The position numbers and the translations under genes are program-made. This document shows positions 1-9,052 of a DNA stretch of 64,000 nt, in pieces (within the stretch, counting starts at the first letter, position 1; every line of letters begins with the position of its first letter). The DNA is from Clostridium sp. GTDB taxonomy: Bacteria > Bacillota > Clostridia > Clostridiales > Clostridiaceae. The stretch lies in NCBI RefSeq assembly GCF_022482905.1, contig NZ_JAKVOI010000001.1, positions 806,001 through 870,000 on the forward strand, read 5' to 3'. A model generated the notes under the pieces. It searched no databases. It was not told the origin of the DNA and saw only the letters and a list, made by a program, of their open reading frames with translations.

Positions 1-65
1 TCAGAGATATTGTTATCTTTATTGCAATATGGTATCACCAGATACCAGAGGATTTAATTAATTAG
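1..65 (+). CDS. C-terminal end of an upstream gene (partial)
   Basis: An open frame runs from the left edge (frame 3) to a TAG at 63-65 and ends ...IWYHQIPEDLIN. The Shine-Dalgarno AGGAGG of the next gene overlaps this stop, so the two are probably co-transcribed. About 20 residues are too few to assign a family. It could be chance, but the tight junction favours a real gene end. Confidence 0.35.
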   Translation, partial: RDIVIFIAIWYHQIPEDLIN

Positions 66-76
66 GAGGAATTCAA

Positions 77-994
77 ATGAAAAAAAAATTGAAGAAAACT
101 ATACTGCTCTCACTGACAGCCACATTTTTATTGACAGCTTCCCTTACAGGGTGTGGAAGCAAATCAGGTACTACAAGTTCAGATAAACCTACTATAAAAG
201 TCGGTTCCAAGAACTTTACAGAATCACTTGTTTTGGGAGAATTATATGCTGATGCTTTGGAAAATGCAGGGTATAAAGTGGAAAGAAAATTGAATCTGAG
301 TGATTCTGTAGTACATTCGTCTCTGGTCAAAGGTGAAATAGACCTCTATCCTGAATATACGGGAACTGGATTACAGTCGATATTGAAAGAGCAGCCTAAA
401 TTTGACGCAAAGCAGGTTTATGATGAGGTGTCCAAAAAATATAAGGAAAAATTTAATTTGATATGGCTTGATCCATCTTCAGGAAATGATTCGGAAGGAT
501 TGGTGATTACTAAAAAAGCATCAGATAAATACAATATACATACGATTTCCGACCTGCAGAAAAATGCCGGCAAATTAAGGTATGCATCCCAGGGTGAATT
601 TGATGTAAGAGCTGATGGTATGCCTCGACTGACGAAAGTGTATGGCCCCTTTAATTTTAAAGATAAAAAAATATATGACAATGGAATAAAGTATGATGTA
701 CTTCACAATGACAAGGCAGATGTTGCTGTTGCTTATACTACGGAGGGACAATTGCGAAAAGACGAGTTTGTTGTTTTGAAGGATGATAAGCAGGCATGGC
801 CGCCTTATAATGTGGCACCTGTAGTTAGAAAGGACATTTTAGATAAAAATCCTGAAATAAAGGATATCCTGAATAAGGTTACAGCTAAACTAGACGATAA
901 GACTTTAATCGAGCTGAATGCTAAGGTGGATATAGACAAGGAAGAGTATGCAACTGTAGCAAAAGATTATTTTGACAAGGAATTCGGAAAATAA
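77..994 (+). CDS. Substrate-binding lipoprotein of a quaternary-amine ABC importer (OpuAC/EgtU type)
   Basis: This is a 305-residue lipoprotein with a signal peptide (KKKLKK, then a hydrophobic stretch) and lipobox LTGC with Cys26. After a Ser/Thr-rich linker comes an OpuAC/OsmF-type periplasmic-binding fold beginning KVGSKNFTE, with the family landmarks YPEYTGTG, DSEGLVI and VAYTTEGQL. The family binds glycine betaine, choline, carnitine and other trimethylammonium compounds; the ergothioneine binder EgtU belongs to it. The ATPase and permease follow within 25 bp and 23 bp, forming a three-gene importer. The enzyme genes downstream, especially the MIO-less lyase at 4917-6485, make ergothioneine or another histidine betaine the ligand to test. 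Start ATG 77 has AGGAGG 8 nt upstream. Class is secure, ligand inferred. Confidence 0.9.
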   Translation: MKKKLKKTILLSLTATFLLTASLTGCGSKSGTTSSDKPTIKVGSKNFTESLVLGELYADALENAGYKVERKLNLSDSVVHSSLVKGEIDLYPEYTGTGLQSILKEQPKFDAKQVYDEVSKKYKEKFNLIWLDPSSGNDSEGLVITKKASDKYNIHTISDLQKNAGKLRYASQGEFDVRADGMPRLTKVYGPFNFKDKKIYDNGIKYDVLHNDKADVAVAYTTEGQLRKDEFVVLKDDKQAWPPYNVAPVVRKDILDKNPEIKDILNKVTAKLDDKTLIELNAKVDIDKEEYATVAKDYFDKEFGK

Positions 995-1018
995 TAGTTT
1001 TATAAAGAGGTGAACATA

Positions 1019-1981
1019 GTGGCAAATATTGCAATAGAGTTTTTAAATGTAAGTAAAAAATTCCCTAAAGCCTCTAAATATTCTGTTGAGAATGTAAACA
1101 TAAGTATAGAAGAAGGACATTTCATAACAATCTTGGGGACATCAGGTTCTGGCAAAACCACATTTTTAAAAATGATTAACAGAATATACGAAACCACCTC
1201 AGGTGATATATTATTCTTTGGAAAAAACATAAGGAAACTTCCTGTGGAGGATTATAGGAGAAAAATAGGATATGTTATACAGCAAATAGGTTTATTTCCA
1301 CATATGACTATAGAACAAAATATAGCTACAGTTCCACAAATATTAAAATGGGACAAGACTAAAATAAATGACAGAATAGATTACTTGATGAATCTAGTAA
1401 ATCTTCCTCCAAAGGACTTCAGAAAAAGATATCCGCGCCAGTTGTCTGGCGGGCAGCAGCAGAGGGTTGGAATTGCAAGGGCCATGGCCGCAGATCCCTC
1501 TGTGATGCTTATGGATGAACCTTTTGGGGCTATTGATGCCATTACAAGGCAGAATCTTCAGGATGAACTTATAAAAATACAAAAGAAACTTCATAAGACT
1601 ATACTTTTTGTAACTCATGATGTGAATGAAGCTTTTAAATTAGGAGATAAAATTATAATTATGAATGAGGGCAGAATTCAGCAATTTGATACTGCAAATA
1701 ATATAGTATTTAATCCTGCTAATGACTATGTATCAAAACTGGTTTCCTCTGATAATATTTTGCAGAGATTAAAATTACTCAAGGCAGAATCCATAATGAT
1801 ACCTGTGAATTCTCAAATAGAAGGTACTGATTACAGGGTGGACAGGGAAGAGACTTTAGATACGGTATTATCACTTTTGCTTGAAAATAATAGGGAATAT
1901 GTTGTTGTAGAAGATAAATGTAAAAAAACGGTAGGAAAGATAACTTTAGAACAGTTGAAGACAAACTCAAAACTAAGATAA
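1019..1981 (+). CDS. ABC transporter ATPase with C-terminal CBS segment (ProV/OpuCA/EgtV type)
   Basis: This is the ATP-hydrolysing subunit of the importer. Visible motifs are Walker A GTSGSGKTT, signature LSGGQQQR, Walker B VMLMDEP and the H-loop in FVTHD. About 90 residues follow that resemble one CBS unit, the module by which OpuCA/ProV-type ATPases sense ionic strength or nucleotides. A GTG at 1010 is in frame but lies inside the Shine-Dalgarno AGAGGTG, so GTG 1019 (6-7 nt spacing) is chosen, giving 320 residues. The gene starts 25 bp after the binding protein and ends 22 bp before the permease start. Function as the transport ATPase is secure; substrate is shared with the binding protein and not certain. 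Confidence 0.92.
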   Translation: MANIAIEFLNVSKKFPKASKYSVENVNISIEEGHFITILGTSGSGKTTFLKMINRIYETTSGDILFFGKNIRKLPVEDYRRKIGYVIQQIGLFPHMTIEQNIATVPQILKWDKTKINDRIDYLMNLVNLPPKDFRKRYPRQLSGGQQQRVGIARAMAADPSVMLMDEPFGAIDAITRQNLQDELIKIQKKLHKTILFVTHDVNEAFKLGDKIIIMNEGRIQQFDTANNIVFNPANDYVSKLVSSDNILQRLKLLKAESIMIPVNSQIEGTDYRVDREETLDTVLSLLLENNREYVVVEDKCKKTVGKITLEQLKTNSKLR

Positions 1982-2003
1982 ATTAAGATTGGTGGTGAGA
2001 ATT

Positions 2004-2660
2004 TTGCTGAATTACCTGATTAAAAATTATGAAGCAATGGCAAAATTATTTGTAGAACATCTCTATATTGTCTCTATAACACTTGCTCTGTCCTTGCTAA
2101 TTGCAATACCCCTGTCAATTTTAATTTTCCGCTCGAAATTATTGTCCAACTTTCTGCTGGCTGTATTTGGTGCTATATATTCCATACCAAGTCTGGCACT
2201 TTTTGCACTTTTAGTTCCATTGCTGGGTATTGGGAAAAAACCTGCCATCTTTGTCCTGGTTGTTTATAATCAATATATTCTTGTAAGAAATGTTCTGGCG
2301 GGATTTAATTCTATAGATCCTGCAATAATAGAAGCTGCAAAGGGCATGGGTTTAAGTAAATCCCAGTTGTTTTTCAAAATTCAGCTTCCACTGGCCCTTC
2401 CAATAATACTTGGAGGTGTAAGAATATCTGCCGTAGTAACTATAGGAATTGCAACTATTGCAGCGGTAATCAATGCGGGAGGACTTGGAGTCATACTGTT
2501 TGATGGATTGAGAATGAACTATCTGCCGAAAATCCTCTGGGGTACTATTATGTCTGCAGGACTGGCATTTTTGGCAAATGAAATAATATTGTATTTTGAG
2601 AGAAGAGCCTCTCTAAAATCAAAGGGTGAATTTAAAAACAGCCTGTATTTGGGAAAATAA
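2004..2660 (+). CDS. ABC transporter permease, quaternary-amine family (ProW/OpuCB type)
   Basis: This is a membrane permease of about 218 residues with five or six hydrophobic segments and the coupling-loop motif EAAKGMGLSKSQLFFKIQLP (about residues 110-130), typical of BPD_transp_1 permeases. In-frame starts exist at TTG 1989, GTG 1992, GTG 1995 and TTG 2004; only the last has a Shine-Dalgarno (GGTGGTGAG) upstream, so it is preferred, with short spacing as a caveat. It completes the importer with the two preceding genes. EgtU of Streptococcus and Helicobacter fuses permease and binding domain, whereas here they are separate, as in OpuC. Confidence 0.9.
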   Translation: MLNYLIKNYEAMAKLFVEHLYIVSITLALSLLIAIPLSILIFRSKLLSNFLLAVFGAIYSIPSLALFALLVPLLGIGKKPAIFVLVVYNQYILVRNVLAGFNSIDPAIIEAAKGMGLSKSQLFFKIQLPLALPIILGGVRISAVVTIGIATIAAVINAGGLGVILFDGLRMNYLPKILWGTIMSAGLAFLANEIILYFERRASLKSKGEFKNSLYLGK

Positions 2661-2684
2661 TTCTATTAAAGTGGTGGTATATAA

Positions 2685-3626
2685 ATGTCAAACGAGAATG
2701 AGTTGATAAAACTTTTAGATTTTCCAGAAATATTAATACCATATTTAAATTACATTTATACGGAAGATGATATAGATATTATACTTGCAATAAAAAATGA
2801 ACCCCGCTCAGAAAAGGAATTGAAAGGGTTGTTGAAGCGAGATATAAGCAGTGTTTTGGAAAGCGCCTATAAAAATTCTGTAGTAAATAAAGTCATTGGT
2901 GAAGAAGTAAAATATACTCCCAATTCTTTAGATTCAAGGATGAGCAGGATGGCCTCATTTGAAAGGGATAAATGGCAAGGTATAAATAAAAATGACAGGG
3001 AAAAGATCTCAAATTGGATTTTTCAAAAATATGTAGATTATAAAAAACAGATGTCAATAAATGATCTATCTGAAAATGGAAACAAGATTTTCCCATTAAG
3101 AGATGCAATTCAATATTTAAATAGGGTAGAAAAAGATATTTATGTAATTCCCTGTGATTGCAAGTCTATTACTGAGAAATGCCAATTTGATAGAAATGTA
3201 TGCATAAGTTTTGGAAATGAAGTAAATTCTTCACAAAATAGGGGAATGGGTAAAAAATTGACCAGGAATGAAGCAGTAGAATTATTGAAGCATGCCGAGA
3301 AAGAAGGACTTATTCATACAGTTGAAAAAAACGCCATATGTAATTGTTGTACATGCTGCTGCTATCCACTGAGGGCATCTGAAGAATTGAATCTAAAGGG
3401 AAAGTGGCCTGAAGTCAGTTACATTATATCAATGGATAGAAATAAATGTATAAACTGCGGCATATGTACACAAAGATGTCAGTTGAATGTATTTGAAAAA
3501 AAAGACAAAGTTGTGTATATGAATAATGAAAAATGTGTGGGATGCGGTATATGTACAACTACTTGTCCCAAAAATGCTTTAAAATTAAAAAGAATTAAAT
3601 TGAAAGGGGATACATTAATTGAGTAA
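2685..3626 (+). CDS. 4Fe-4S ferredoxin-type protein with N-terminal winged-helix-like region
   Basis: This protein has 313 residues. The C-terminal 60 carry two classic 4Fe-4S motifs, CINCGICTQRC and CVGCGICTTTC, as in bacterial two-cluster ferredoxins. Residues about 155-175 (CDCKSITEKC...C) and about 220-228 (CNCCTCCC) hold at least eight more Cys, possibly binding another cluster. The first 80 residues look like a winged helix (ELKGLLKRDISSVLESAYK). It probably carries electrons in the cytoplasm, or is a redox enzyme on its own. It overlaps the following PLP gene by 8 nt, so the two are translationally coupled, and it lies between a betaine-type importer and a MIO-less lyase. A role in reducing or desulfurising the imported compound is inference. 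Confidence 0.8.
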   Translation: MSNENELIKLLDFPEILIPYLNYIYTEDDIDIILAIKNEPRSEKELKGLLKRDISSVLESAYKNSVVNKVIGEEVKYTPNSLDSRMSRMASFERDKWQGINKNDREKISNWIFQKYVDYKKQMSINDLSENGNKIFPLRDAIQYLNRVEKDIYVIPCDCKSITEKCQFDRNVCISFGNEVNSSQNRGMGKKLTRNEAVELLKHAEKEGLIHTVEKNAICNCCTCCCYPLRASEELNLKGKWPEVSYIISMDRNKCINCGICTQRCQLNVFEKKDKVVYMNNEKCVGCGICTTTCPKNALKLKRIKLKGDTLIE

Positions 3627-4899
3627 GAGAGAATTAAAGTTCGATACACTTCAGGTTCATGCAGGTCAAAAAGTAGATAGGCAGACAGGAGCTACTGCAG
3701 TGCCCATATATCAAACTTCAGCATTCCGCTTTGATACTTTTGATGATGCTAGGGCGGTCAGTGCCTATGAGAAACCTGGGTACAACTATACAAGATTCAG
3801 GAATCCAACTCAAAGTGCATTTGAGAAAAGAATAGCAGCTCTTGAAGGCGGCACTGCTGCACTTTCTACCAGTTCAGGGATGGCGGCTATCTCTTATTCC
3901 CTCTTGAATATAGTATCACAGGGTGATGAAATAATAGCTGCAGATACTTTATATGCTGGAACTCATACTACTTTTTCTGATTTATTCTCAAATATGGGAA
4001 TAAAGACTAATTTTGTGAATCCGGACAATATAGATGGTTTTAAAAGATACATAAACGAAAACACCAAAGCCATATATATAGAATCCATAGGAAATCCGGG
4101 TATTAACATCATAGATATAGAACCTCTGGCAAAATTGGCTGATGACAATCAGATACCTTTGATTGTTGATAATACCTTTGCAACTCCATATCTTTTCAAT
4201 CCAATAAAATATGGGGCTAATATTGTTGTACACTCGGCTACAAAATTCATAGGAGGTCATGGCTCTACTATAGGAGGAGTCATAGTAGAGGGAGGAAATT
4301 TTGATTGGGCTAAAGGTGGTAAATTTCCTGGCTTTACGGAACCTATCAATAATGGAATAAAATATTACGAAACTTATAAGAATACTGCCTTTGTAGCGAA
4401 AGCAAGAGGTCAGCTTATGGGAAGTTTGGGAGCAACTCTAAGCCCATTTAATGCATTTATATTGCTGCAGGGAATTGAAACACTGTCTTTGAGAATGAAA
4501 AAACATGTGTTCAATGCCTTGAAAGTAGCTGAATTTCTGGATGCCAATGATAAAGTCTCATGGGTAAACTATCCTGGCTTAAAAAGCAGTAAATACTATG
4601 AACTTGGAAAAAAATATTTTCCTAAAGGACCAGGATCCATACTTACATTTGGATTAAAAGGAGGACTGGATAATATAGAGAAGTTTATAGATAACCTGGA
4701 GATATTCTCTTTAGTCACAAATATAGGTGATATTAAATCTCTTGTGGTTCATCCTGCTACAACTACCCATGCAGAATTATCAGAAGAGGATCAGCGTCTG
4801 GCTGGTGTGACCCCTGATTTAATAAGGATGTCTATAGGCATAGAGGATATAGATGACATAATTTTTGACCTGGATCAATCTTTGAGCAAGTTAAATTGA
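3619..4899 (+). CDS. O-acetylhomoserine sulfhydrylase-like PLP enzyme (Cys/Met metabolism family)
   Basis: A 426-residue enzyme of the Cys/Met metabolism PLP-dependent family (fold type I). Recognisable landmarks are VHAGQ near the N-terminus, NYTRFRNPT, SSGMAAIS, DNTFATP and the PLP lysine in HSATKFIGGHG. Length and the FDTLQVHAGQ opening match MetY-type O-acetylhomoserine sulfhydrylases, which make homocysteine from O-acetylhomoserine and sulfide; methionine gamma-lyase is the main alternative. Start is TTG 3619, preceded by AAAGGGGA and overlapping the previous stop. Its place between the Fe-S gene and the MIO-less lyase suggests that it captures sulfide released from an imported sulfur compound, or cleaves a C-S bond itself (inference). 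Confidence 0.88.
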   Translation: MSKRELKFDTLQVHAGQKVDRQTGATAVPIYQTSAFRFDTFDDARAVSAYEKPGYNYTRFRNPTQSAFEKRIAALEGGTAALSTSSGMAAISYSLLNIVSQGDEIIAADTLYAGTHTTFSDLFSNMGIKTNFVNPDNIDGFKRYINENTKAIYIESIGNPGINIIDIEPLAKLADDNQIPLIVDNTFATPYLFNPIKYGANIVVHSATKFIGGHGSTIGGVIVEGGNFDWAKGGKFPGFTEPINNGIKYYETYKNTAFVAKARGQLMGSLGATLSPFNAFILLQGIETLSLRMKKHVFNALKVAEFLDANDKVSWVNYPGLKSSKYYELGKKYFPKGPGSILTFGLKGGLDNIEKFIDNLEIFSLVTNIGDIKSLVVHPATTTHAELSEEDQRLAGVTPDLIRMSIGIEDIDDIIFDLDQSLSKLN

Positions 4900-4916
4900 T
4901 ATATAGGAGGATATCT

Positions 4917-6485
4917 GTGAGTGATACATCAATGTATTTTTATAGTCTCGGGAAGATAAAAAACATAACTCTCGGTAAAAAGGATATTACGCTGAGTGAA
5001 TTTATTGCTGTAGTAAGATATAATGCAGGCGTTTATTTATCAGAGGATTATATTTCCCGGGTAAAAAGCTCAAGAAAACTGCTGGAAAAACTTATAGAAG
5101 AAAAAAGGATAATTTATGGGGTAACTACTGGATTTGGATATAATTGTGATAAGATCATAGATAAAGAAGATGCAGAAAAACTTCAGAAAAATATTCTGAT
5201 TTCCCATGCCTGTTCCGTAGGAGAGGCCCTGAAGCCTGAAGCAGTGCGTGGCATTTTGCTTATGATGCTTTTGAATCTGGGACAGGGCTATTCGGGAATA
5301 AAGGTTGAGACTGTCGAATTCCTATGTGAGCTTTTAAATAAACGTGTTACACCCTTTGCTCCGGCTCACGGTTCGGTAGGTTATCTGTCTCCCGAAGCAC
5401 ATATTGCTTTGATAATAACAGGCAGAGGAAAGGCATGGTATAGAGGAAATCTTGTTGATGCAGATGAAGCCTTGAAGAGAGCCGATATAAAAGCTCCTAA
5501 ACTGAGTTATAAGGAAGGACTGGCGTTGATATCCGGTACTACATCAATAACTGCCATATCGGCGATTGCTGTATATGATTCCATGAAATCAGCCATTAAT
5601 CTTGATATTGCAGGTGCCATGTCTCTGGAAGTTTTAAAAGGTACAATCCATGCTTTCGATCCGAGACTTCAAAGTGTCAGACGCCATGATAATCAAAGGA
5701 ATACAGCGGATAATATCAACAGAATATTAAAAGACAGTGAGATATCATCAAAGTATATAAATTACAGGCTTCAGGATGCATTATCTTTAAGGTGCATGCC
5801 ACAGCTTCATGGTGCTGCAAAAAAAACGCTTAAGGATGCGTATACGACTATTTTAGATGAAATGAACTCATGTTGTGATAATCCAATAATATATCCGGTG
5901 AATAGTACAGACGGGGAAGCATTGATGGGTGGAAATGCTGATGGCTCGTATGTTGGAATAGAAGCGGACTCAATGGGCATAGCAGATGTCAATCTTGGTA
6001 AAATGTCTGAAAGAAGGCTTCAAAGACTTTTAAATGAAAATGAAAGTGGTATGCCTGCATTTCTGGTACAGAAACCTGGATTGAACAGTGGGCTTATGGT
6101 GACACAGTATTCTGCAGCTGGTATTCTTGGTGAAATGAGAATTTTAGCGAGTCCGGCTACAATTGACAATGTTTCCACCTGTGCTAATCAAGAAGATTAT
6201 GTGAGCATGGGTTATAATGCTGCTAAAAAGGCTCTGCGTATATCGCAACTTCTTGAGAATATAATATCAATGGAAATTATTGCTTCATCACAGGCTGTAA
6301 AATTTTTACATCCGCTAAAACAATCTCCGGTCACATCTAAAATATGCAGTAAAATAAGAAATATAATGCCGGAAATGTATGAAGATATTTTTATCTATCC
6401 TTATATTGAAAAAATAAGAAAAATGATTCACAGTGGAACGCTGATCAAGTATGTTGAAGAGGAAATTGGTAGTTTGAAATTTTAA
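4917..6485 (+). CDS. Aromatic amino-acid lyase-fold enzyme lacking the MIO triad; candidate ergothionase
   Basis: This 522-residue protein has the HAL/PAL fold: YGVTTGFG (catalytic Tyr loop), LQDALSLRC, NPIIYP, FLVQKPGLNSG and the NQEDYVSMG glutamate region. Ordinary ammonia lyases have GSVGASGDLAPL, whose Ala-Ser-Gly cyclises into the MIO electrophile. Here the segment at residues 152-162 reads GSVGYLSPEAH, with the triad deleted. The MIO-contacting Asn of LLNGTQ is Ser (LISGTT), and the Tyr of QDPYSLRC is Leu. Ergothionase of Treponema denticola is a homologue that eliminates trimethylamine from ergothioneine without MIO, because the leaving group is already activated. The upstream betaine-type importer fits this. 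Start GTG 4917 has AGGAGG at 6 nt; an in-frame TTG at 4896 lacks one. Histidine ammonia-lyase activity is unlikely. Confidence 0.85.
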   Translation: MSDTSMYFYSLGKIKNITLGKKDITLSEFIAVVRYNAGVYLSEDYISRVKSSRKLLEKLIEEKRIIYGVTTGFGYNCDKIIDKEDAEKLQKNILISHACSVGEALKPEAVRGILLMMLLNLGQGYSGIKVETVEFLCELLNKRVTPFAPAHGSVGYLSPEAHIALIITGRGKAWYRGNLVDADEALKRADIKAPKLSYKEGLALISGTTSITAISAIAVYDSMKSAINLDIAGAMSLEVLKGTIHAFDPRLQSVRRHDNQRNTADNINRILKDSEISSKYINYRLQDALSLRCMPQLHGAAKKTLKDAYTTILDEMNSCCDNPIIYPVNSTDGEALMGGNADGSYVGIEADSMGIADVNLGKMSERRLQRLLNENESGMPAFLVQKPGLNSGLMVTQYSAAGILGEMRILASPATIDNVSTCANQEDYVSMGYNAAKKALRISQLLENIISMEIIASSQAVKFLHPLKQSPVTSKICSKIRNIMPEMYEDIFIYPYIEKIRKMIHSGTLIKYVEEEIGSLKF

Positions 6486-7574: not shown

Positions 7575-7788
7575 TATTCTTCTCTTGTAGGTCGCTGGCA
7601 CACTACAGAACCTGAGGAGGTGAGTGGCGAGGCTGTATAGCGGCAACCCCGTATAGTTATATAGGTCGGTCATCCGTTAAGGCATCAATGAATGGCGCAA
7701 AACAGTAGCCCGTAAACTTATCTCTTCCGAAGTTGACTCGATTTCGCCGGATGACCAGTCCCTGCCAGCCCTACCATTCTTTTTGTAG
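7575..7788 (+). ncRNA. Candidate IS110 bridge RNA in the left-end non-coding region
   Basis: The roughly 210 bp before the transposase has no reading frame, is richer in G+C than the flanks and contains several short complementary segments. In IS110-group elements such as IS621 this position encodes the bridge RNA, whose two loops pair with target and donor DNA. Position and composition fit; I did not fold it or assign the loops. Confidence 0.4.
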
Positions 7789-7798
7789 GAGGAACTCT

Positions 7799-9052
7799 AT
7801 GTTTAAAATCTTTCGTAAAAACTGCTGTGGACTTGATGTCCACAAAACCTGGATCTATGCCTGCATCGGAATTACCGATACCAATGGACGTACTGAGTAC
7901 AAACAGGCTCGTTTTTCTTCCTTTTCTAAAGGTCTAAAAGAATTAGCTGAATGGCTTGCTAAATACTCCTGTTTGGATGTCTGTATGGAATCCTCCGGCA
8001 AGTATTGGATTCCTGTATTCAACATCCTTGAGAAAACCTGTTTTGTTACCCTTGCACATCCGAAATATACAAAGCCTCAAAAAGGAAATAAAACCGATGT
8101 CAAGGATGCCAGATGGATCTGTGATCTTTTTATGTGCGATATGATCAAACCAAGCTTTATTCCTTCCCCTGAAGTTCGTCAGCTGCGTGACCTGATACGT
8201 TATCGCTTTAAGCTGACAAATATGCTGTCCGGTGAAAAGAACCGTGCCCAGAACTGTCTTACTGTCTCAAATCTAAAGCTTGATGATGTTTTCAGCGATG
8301 TATTTGGTAAATCTTCCAGATCTATCACCAACTACATGCTCGACCATCCGGGTGAACGCTTTGACGTTGCTCCTTTTGTCGATGGACGTTGTAAAACTCC
8401 GCTTGAAGAAATACAGTCAGCTGTCGATGGTGCCATTTCCCCTGAGCAGGCTGTCAAACTCCGACAATGTCTCGCACACATCGACGAGCTTGAAGCCCAC
8501 AGACAGGAAATTGAGCAGGAGATCCTTCTGATTGCAGAACCCTTCTCCGCTGTTTTGGATTTTCTTTACACGATTCCAGGGTTAGATAAAAATTCGATGA
8601 CCGCTATTGTCATTCTCTCTGAGATTGGTCCCGATATGTCGGTGTTCCCGTCATCCAAACATCTGGTTTCCTGGGCTGGTTGTTGCCCACGTAACGACCA
8701 AAGTGCTGGTAAAGTGAAATCCACACGTATTTCTCGTGCTGGTTGTTATTTGAAGCCTCTTCTTGTTCAGCTTGCCAGCGCATTAATAAAATCCAAAAAG
8801 CATCCTGAATTCAAAGAGAGGTATCACAGAATCAAAACCCACAGGGGACACAAAAAGGCTATCATTGCTGTTTGCAAGATGCTTCTGACCGCTATCTGGA
8901 ACATCTTAAGCAAACTGGAGCCATATACTCCGGAAGGGTTTTTGGAGCATCGCCCTGTCAAGGAATCCAAGATTCTGACAAGGTCACAAGCTCTGGAACT
9001 GTTCAGGAAAAGAGGTTACACAATAATTGATGATCCTGTTGTGACTGCGTAA
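7799..9052 (+). CDS. IS110-family transposase (DEDD recombinase)
   Basis: This 417-residue transposase has the N-terminal RuvC-like DEDD domain, seen as GLDVHKTWI (first Asp), CMESSGKYW (Glu) and TDVKDARW (the Asp pair). The C-terminal Transposase_20 domain has the DQSAGKVKSTRISRAG region with the candidate nucleophilic Ser. Length is full for the family and no frameshift is seen, so the protein may be active. Start ATG 7799 is preceded by AGGAGG; the frame is open back to 7733 but without a ribosome site. A bridge-RNA-guided recombination mechanism is known for this family (IS621). Confidence 0.95.
   Translation: MFKIFRKNCCGLDVHKTWIYACIGITDTNGRTEYKQARFSSFSKGLKELAEWLAKYSCLDVCMESSGKYWIPVFNILEKTCFVTLAHPKYTKPQKGNKTDVKDARWICDLFMCDMIKPSFIPSPEVRQLRDLIRYRFKLTNMLSGEKNRAQNCLTVSNLKLDDVFSDVFGKSSRSITNYMLDHPGERFDVAPFVDGRCKTPLEEIQSAVDGAISPEQAVKLRQCLAHIDELEAHRQEIEQEILLIAEPFSAVLDFLYTIPGLDKNSMTAIVILSEIGPDMSVFPSSKHLVSWAGCCPRNDQSAGKVKSTRISRAGCYLKPLLVQLASALIKSKKHPEFKERYHRIKTHRGHKKAIIAVCKMLLTAIWNILSKLEPYTPEGFLEHRPVKESKILTRSQALELFRKRGYTIIDDPVVTA

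Follow-up and report, generated by a model that had tools for sequence, protein, structure and literature searches.

In the gut bacterial pathway for ergothioneine, an ergothionase-type step is followed by reductive C-S cleavage, and the published reductive thiourocanate desulfhydrase is described as a homologue of xanthine oxidase (Feng 2025, as cited in PMC12771579 and PMC13405746). The latter found ergothionase to be rare and cautions about divergent homologues (PMC13405746). Ergothionase of Treponema denticola (PDB 6s7j/6s7q) has the fold of histidine ammonia-lyase (HAL) and lacks 4-methylideneimidazole-5-one (MIO), and the ergothioneine importer EgtUV fuses its permease to an OpuAC-type binding domain and has a ProV-like ATPase (PMC9732360). 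The locus compared here with these systems lies at the start of a 64,000-nucleotide stretch (the window; G000:C1:806001-870000) of the 3.57 Mb, single-contig genome of a Clostridium sp. (NCBI RefSeq assembly GCF_022482905.1, contig NZ_JAKVOI010000001.1). We tentatively read this operon, with somewhat less than even confidence, as a route for an ergothioneine-type betaine in which an iron-sulfur (Fe-S) protein would act as a molybdenum-free desulfurase and pass sulfide to a sulfhydrylase. Ergothioneine itself is a plausible substrate, and the route so read would differ from the published pathway in its importer, its lyase family and its desulfurase candidate.

The operon and the adjoining urocanate-degrading genes

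A sequence-only reading of the window had proposed six closely packed genes at 77..6485 as an operon for ergothioneine uptake and breakdown. These genes are present on the + strand, spaced by 15, 7, 24, -8 and -4 bases, and the operon comprises not six but seven genes on that strand, a second permease gene ending at window base 57:

1..57, + strand: 3' end of permease 1 (whole gene G000:C1:805398-806057, equal to L002:15398-16057); top NCBIfam matches ABC_choXWV_perm and ProW, both under their curated cut-offs
77..994, + strand: substrate-binding protein, lipoprotein-type, OpuAC family (213 bits), without the EgtU signature
1010..1981, + strand: ABC ATPase, ProV-like (ABC_tran; proV family 316 bits, under the cut-off of 327)
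1989..2660, + strand: permease 2 (BPD_transp_1)
2685..3626, + strand: Fe-S protein, candidate reductive desulfurase (Fer4 and dicluster models)
3619..4899, + strand: O-acetylhomoserine sulfhydrylase of the MetY family, proposed to capture sulfide (TIGR01326, 582 bits)
4896..6485, + strand: MIO-less HAL-fold lyase, Y-type, proposed trimethylamine lyase (Lyase_aromatic, 518 bits)

The same seven genes, in rearranged order, occur in Pectinatus frisingensis (L015), the sole other genome found with the whole unit, and the operon is therefore more than a product of chance. Of the conservation that the sequence-only reading had suggested looking for, linkage of the whole unit was found in this one further genome, with the gene order changed. 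No description of the seven-gene unit was found by title or abstract opening among the literature matches listed, in a search whose reach took in few subscription papers.

About 360 bases from the operon, a divergent cluster comprises rpiR, an M20 amidohydrolase, a HutF-like deaminase, hutU and hutI. Both hutU (449 bits, cut-off 375) and hutI (452 bits, cut-off 298) pass their curated models, and the HutF-like gene falls under its own. The locus resembles Hut histidine degradation in the hutU, hutI, HutF-like and M20 genes that adjoin the operon, and differs from it in that the genome has no MIO HutH; indeed, the window genome holds no HAL-family (PF00221) gene other than the operon lyase, be it ergothionase-type or MIO lyase. 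Because the hut cluster adjoins the operon and no other HAL-family gene is present, the lyase probably feeds urocanate degradation. Among the 22 genomes with lyases of the same type (the Y-type, described below), hutU is present in 19 and exceeds its cut-off in 16. In Pectinatus, the corresponding cluster runs rpiR-M20-hutF-(aconitase X pair, one more gene)-hutI-hutU, and PF00221 matches twice: to a Y-type gene with which one contig opens, and over 46 positions at the end of another contig, presumably the missing start of that gene. The urocanate-degrading cluster, which lay outside the view of the sequence-only reading, and the presence of a 4Fe-4S protein and a sulfhydrylase-like enzyme dependent on pyridoxal phosphate (PLP), both of which that reading had named correctly and which fit a sulfur-bearing substrate, lend its interpretation partial support.

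The lyase and its relation to ergothionase

The operon lyase lacks the Ala-Ser-Gly (MIO) triad, as had been recognized from the sequence alone. Its loop, GSVGY---LSPEAH in the alignment, stands where MIO enzymes have GSVGASGDLAPLAH, and the triad is likewise absent from all 37 aligned rows of the Y-type, a separate MIO-less clade with the signature GSVGY-L. The models that fit Y-type genes best are those for histidine ammonia-lyase; the operon lyase falls under the curated HutH cut-off (TIGR01225, 493 vs 539 bits), and its closest PDB chain is an MIO histidine ammonia-lyase (316 bits), with ergothionase 6s7j ranked 27 of 39 (147 bits). A contig scan for relatives, in which the best 80 of 114 were kept, yielded 79 loci, of which 21 (L003-L023) carry Y-type copies, 57 carry an ASGD loop or ACGD (L028, L048, L053) and one (L037) is unclassified. 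In a quick tree of 58 rows, from which 10 near-duplicate Y rows had been removed, the 32 Y-type rows form one clade nested in the MIO enzymes and the six ergothionase-type rows another, each with support 100, and the operon lyase lies outside the 6s7j clade. Placement of the lyase in the ergothionase clade is rejected on this best tree, while the approximately unbiased (AU) test leaves a joint MIO-less clade unrejected (p 0.234); two separate losses of MIO are what the best tree indicates, and are not proven. Y-type lyases fall into subclasses at positions 195/280/329 (S/L/A, N/L/P, N/Y/F and others), and six of the 21 fetched loci carry two copies, so that the family is likely to act on several substrates.

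Active-site residues were compared across 37 rows of the Y-type, 17 of the ergothionase-type and 23 from MIO enzymes (since L127 and L250 denote a single locus, each of the latter two sets includes one duplicate), at positions numbered after Pseudomonas putida HAL and presumed to have the catalytic roles assigned to them in that enzyme. Tyr53 and Glu414 are conserved in all rows and Arg283 in all but one, the Y-type retaining His83 in 36 of 37 rows and both Arg283 and Glu414 in 37 of 37. Position 330, His in all 23 MIO rows, is Asp in 37/37 Y-type and acidic in 16/17 ergothionase-type rows. Tyr280 is replaced by Leu in 30/37 and 17/17 rows of the two types, respectively, and Asn195 by Ser in 21/37 and 15/17. 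These common departures of the MIO-less lyases suggest a shared chemistry, in which the acid may hold an onium leaving group where MIO once held the amine. The operon lyase and the T. denticola enzyme share the HAL fold, the lack of MIO, the Y280L and N195S changes, the acid at H330 and the retained Tyr53, His83, Arg283 and Glu414, and the former probably works like ergothionase. It differs from ergothionase in its loop (GSVGYLSPEAH, against SSIGEGDITTLSH there), in the replacement of Phe329 by Ala, in having no Lys at 386 and in belonging to another clade in the best tree. Position 329 is Phe in 17/17 ergothionase-type rows but varies among the Y-type rows (16 Ala, 11 Pro, eight Phe and two Cys). 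The match to ergothionase proposed by the sequence-only reading consequently stands for the active-site changes and the loss of MIO, and fails for membership in the ergothionase clade.

Candidate sulfur-handling proteins and the importer

The Fe-S protein is composed of a large N-terminal domain, a Cys-rich middle (C157, C159, C166, C173, C219, C221, C225 and C226) and a C-terminal 2[4Fe-4S] ferredoxin, with invariant cysteines beyond those of the ferredoxin. Its structural model is confident (pLDDT 90, pTM 0.86), and a Foldseek search with this model returned no PDB match at E 0.001, finding just ferredoxin-like stretches of about 60 columns with good root-mean-square deviation; the N-terminal part would appear to have no convincing PDB look-alike. 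The family is rare: of 392 Clostridia genomes, just two, G215 and that of the window, hold a near full-length match, in each case at most a few kb from a Y-type lyase, and six more of these genomes hold partial matches to a longer Fe-S family. The longer family (about 430 amino acids, from Clostridia) has the same Cys-rich middle and ferredoxin end (L116-L119), and no lyase was seen in the 16-17 kb around its members at these four inspected loci.

Neighbouring genes were counted by tblastn within 8 kb of the lyase at 35 Y-type and 14 ergothionase-type loci (including L260 and excluding L250, which equals L127); as near relatives or one and the same genome contribute several of the loci, and some stretches are short, the counts are not independent. 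The Fe-S gene is found in seven of the 35 Y-type loci (L010, L013, L014, L015, L115, L258 and the window) and in none of the 14 ergothionase-type loci, all seven copies found thus lying near Y-type lyases. Genes of xanthine-dehydrogenase type occur at two Y-type and 10 ergothionase-type loci (those of L241 lie just past 8 kb), and no locus holds both kinds of gene. In a quick tree of 30 xanthine-dehydrogenase-type subunits, two Y-linked rows (L007, L018) and four ergothionase-linked rows, among them that of G458, which adjoins an ergothionase-type gene, form one clade (support 100) apart from the other 24; the enzymes of L244 and L248 (more distant, 31% identity) and those of L241-L243, L247 and L257 were left out of this tree. 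Of 12 genomes tested for PF02738 (E 1e-20), the window genome and that of Pectinatus show no match, and the remaining 10 do. This absence, together with the mutual exclusion of the two kinds of gene, is the ground for proposing that the Fe-S protein could take the place of the molybdenum desulfhydrase. The gut pathway, as reported, relies at this step on the xanthine oxidase homologue, whereas the operon encodes an unrelated Fe-S protein.

The sulfhydrylase passes the TIGR01326 cut-off for O-acetylhomoserine sulfhydrylases (582 vs 495 bits). Since the genome holds nine strong Cys/Met PLP matches (E < 1e-100), the operon copy included, this copy is unlikely to serve methionine synthesis alone. 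A tblastn comparison gives 59% identity between it and a paralogue in the window genome, against 49% between it and its Pectinatus counterpart. Given this closeness to its own paralogue, and the fact that the window and Pectinatus lyases fall in different Y subclades, the association of sulfhydrylase and lyase may have arisen twice; alternatively, one lineage may have exchanged its copy later. If the same functions did come together more than once, that would argue for a genuine link between them.

The importer had been assigned from the sequence alone to the EgtUV class, an assignment that does not hold. It shares with EgtUV an OpuAC-type binding domain and a ProV-like ATPase, but its binding protein is separate and accompanied by two permeases, in contrast to the fused permease and binding domain of EgtUV (PMC9732360). 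The three rows used as a yardstick for EgtU (L165-L167, of which L167 matches Lmo1422 with 337 bits and chains named EgtUC with 329-334 bits) share K-[LM]-G, PEF[TS]GT and F293, residue roles being taken from the same report (PMC9732360). The window protein has K-N-F for K-x-G (G244), PEYTGT for PEF[TS]GT and Tyr at F293, and EgtU-type import is ruled out on residues by the lack of K-x-G, PEF and the N339/Y341 cage pair. In the Pectinatus protein, the cage positions N339 and Y341 hold Asp and Gln. The subfamily of the window binding protein is also represented on a Limosilactobacillus plasmid and in G107, with no Y-type lyase nearby; row L145, which consists largely of permease sequence, was excluded from the comparison of binding proteins.

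Proposed route, alternatives and further neighbours

In the proposed route, ABC uptake would bring in a quaternary amine that derives from histidine and probably contains sulfur, either ergothioneine or one of its close analogues, from which the Y-type lyase would eliminate trimethylamine without the MIO cofactor, giving (thio)urocanate. The Fe-S protein, fed by its own ferredoxin domain, would then reductively strip the thione sulfur to yield urocanate and H2S; the sulfhydrylase would fix the H2S into homocysteine, and the divergent hutU-hutI-hutF-M20 genes would convert urocanate to glutamate. A stronger form of this proposal makes the Fe-S protein a novel reductive desulfurase of thiourocanate (or of a thio-imidazole) that needs no molybdenum, and regards the Y-type as a second family of MIO-less quaternary-amine lyases that evolved independently; together they would give a complete route from ergothioneine to glutamate and homocysteine in anaerobes devoid of HutH and xanthine-oxidase enzymes. 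We consider this form unlikely. If the proposed route is right, the breakdown of ergothioneine or histidine betaine extends further among anaerobic Firmicutes than is apparent from searches with known ergothionase sequences, and the route would add both another chemistry for the reductive cleavage of aromatic C-S bonds and a case in which to examine how an MIO enzyme turns MIO-free.

Several observations weigh against the proposed route. Ergothionase-type and Y-type genes coexist in at least 11 genomes, which suggests that the Y-type may have a substrate other than that of the ergothionase-type; this total is a lower bound drawn from the part of the PF00221 matches that was fetched, and comprises nine of the 21 genomes reached via Y-type loci (G458, G460, G462, G464, G470, G475, G476, G477 and G478) and also G031, G046 and G006, the ergothionase-type genes being confirmed by sequence in all of them; G006, of the same genus as the window genome, and G464, to which the Clostridium ljungdahlii locus L005 belongs, are a single genome (shared contig C3) and are counted once. 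Position 386 is Lys in 16/17 ergothionase-type and Tyr in 37/37 Y-type rows, a feature of the rows compared here and not part of a published ergothionase definition. No Fe-S gene accompanies 28 of the 35 Y-type loci (some on short stretches), the sulfhydrylase and ABC set lie beside the lyase in just two, the Fe-S-bearing G459 and G460 carry PF02738 genes elsewhere, and the Fe-S loci L115 and L258 also hold MttB methyltransferase genes. Lastly, the binding protein lacks the EgtU determinants, with Asp and Glu at the cage positions N339/Y341. The main rival, which we hold to be rather unlikely, is a trimethylamine-lyase for hercynine (histidine betaine) that would yield urocanate directly for hutUIF, with the Fe-S protein and sulfhydrylase serving another need. 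The coexistence of both lyase types and the missing Lys speak for hercynine, as do the 26 Y-type loci with neither desulfurase candidate within 8 kb and the adjacent hutU, an ordinary urocanate hydratase far below the thiourocanate hydratase cut-off (315 vs 930 bits). Hercynine nevertheless leaves two of the seven genes unexplained, even though the sulfhydrylase is found in both units and every Fe-S gene near a Y-type lyase, and it does not account for the two Y-type loci with xanthine-dehydrogenase-type genes of the ergothionase-linked clade.

An ammonia-lyase that works without MIO, on histidine or some other primary amine, with the locus replacing HutH, would suit a genome with hutUIF and no HutH, the acidic residues of the binding protein where a quaternary-amine cage has Asn and Tyr, and the HAL-like N195/Y280/F329 of some Y-type members. 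This reading is nonetheless quite improbable: MIO is required for ammonia elimination in the characterised members of the family, the H330-to-acid and Y280L changes parallel ergothionase, and BCCT and MttB genes, families of quaternary and tertiary amines, neighbour 11 and four of the 35 Y-type lyases. Very improbable, in turn, is that the lyase is simply an isoenzyme of ergothionase served by an ergothioneine importer, as the sequence-only reading had it, with no new desulfurase involved. The common fold and residue changes agree with it and the AU test allows one MIO-less clade, but the best tree nests the Y-type in the MIO enzymes with full support for each MIO-less type, the EgtU signature is absent and ergothionase-type genes coexist with the Y-type. 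Compatible with the other readings, and doubtful but possible, is that the Fe-S protein serves to carry electrons or to activate a corrinoid and is not a desulfurase. Its C-terminal 2[4Fe-4S] ferredoxin is of a common kind, MttB genes adjoin the Fe-S gene in L115 and L258, and its longer relatives occur without a lyase at the four inspected loci; against this stand the large N-terminal domain and extra invariant cysteines, and the lack of any MttB (PF06253) match in the window genome.

MttB-family corrinoid methyltransferase genes lie near the Y-type lyases of L018, L019, L115 and L258, suggesting onward methylamine use in those hosts; for the window genome, MttB-type demethylation of trimethylamine is rejected on the PF06253 result. 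Aconitase X, present in the Pectinatus hut cluster (L208:5416-7021), also occurs near Y-type lyases, its large subunit being found in six of the 35 loci (L012, L016, L017, L019, L258 and L260), and is possibly an extra step in histidine-type degradation. A family of about 180 residues (L004:9394-9936 and relatives), with no Pfam or NCBIfam match, lies near a sodium:solute symporter and the MIO-less lyase in nine Y-type and two ergothionase-type loci. The c3 gene had no match in the window genome, in a search run without a positive control.

The leader between rpiR and the operon contains a strong hairpin (L002:15296-15412; minimum free energy -29.7, z -5.4), which may be a terminator, an attenuator or an operator. 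An Rfam search of L002, a stretch that includes the hairpin and the rest of the region before the operon, gave nothing at gathering score, and no common operator was seen by eye among the upstream inverted repeats of the window and Pectinatus operons. Past the operon lie a GGDEF-type protein on the opposite strand, named by eye from its translation, and, shortly beyond the operon, a transposase-like gene (IS110 type by eye; window 7733-9052). Another lyase without ASG, carrying GSIGAADLAPLAH and Arg in place of His83, is encoded on a Rhizobium leguminosarum plasmid (L082:5980-8488), where it directly precedes a binding protein 45% identical to that of the window.

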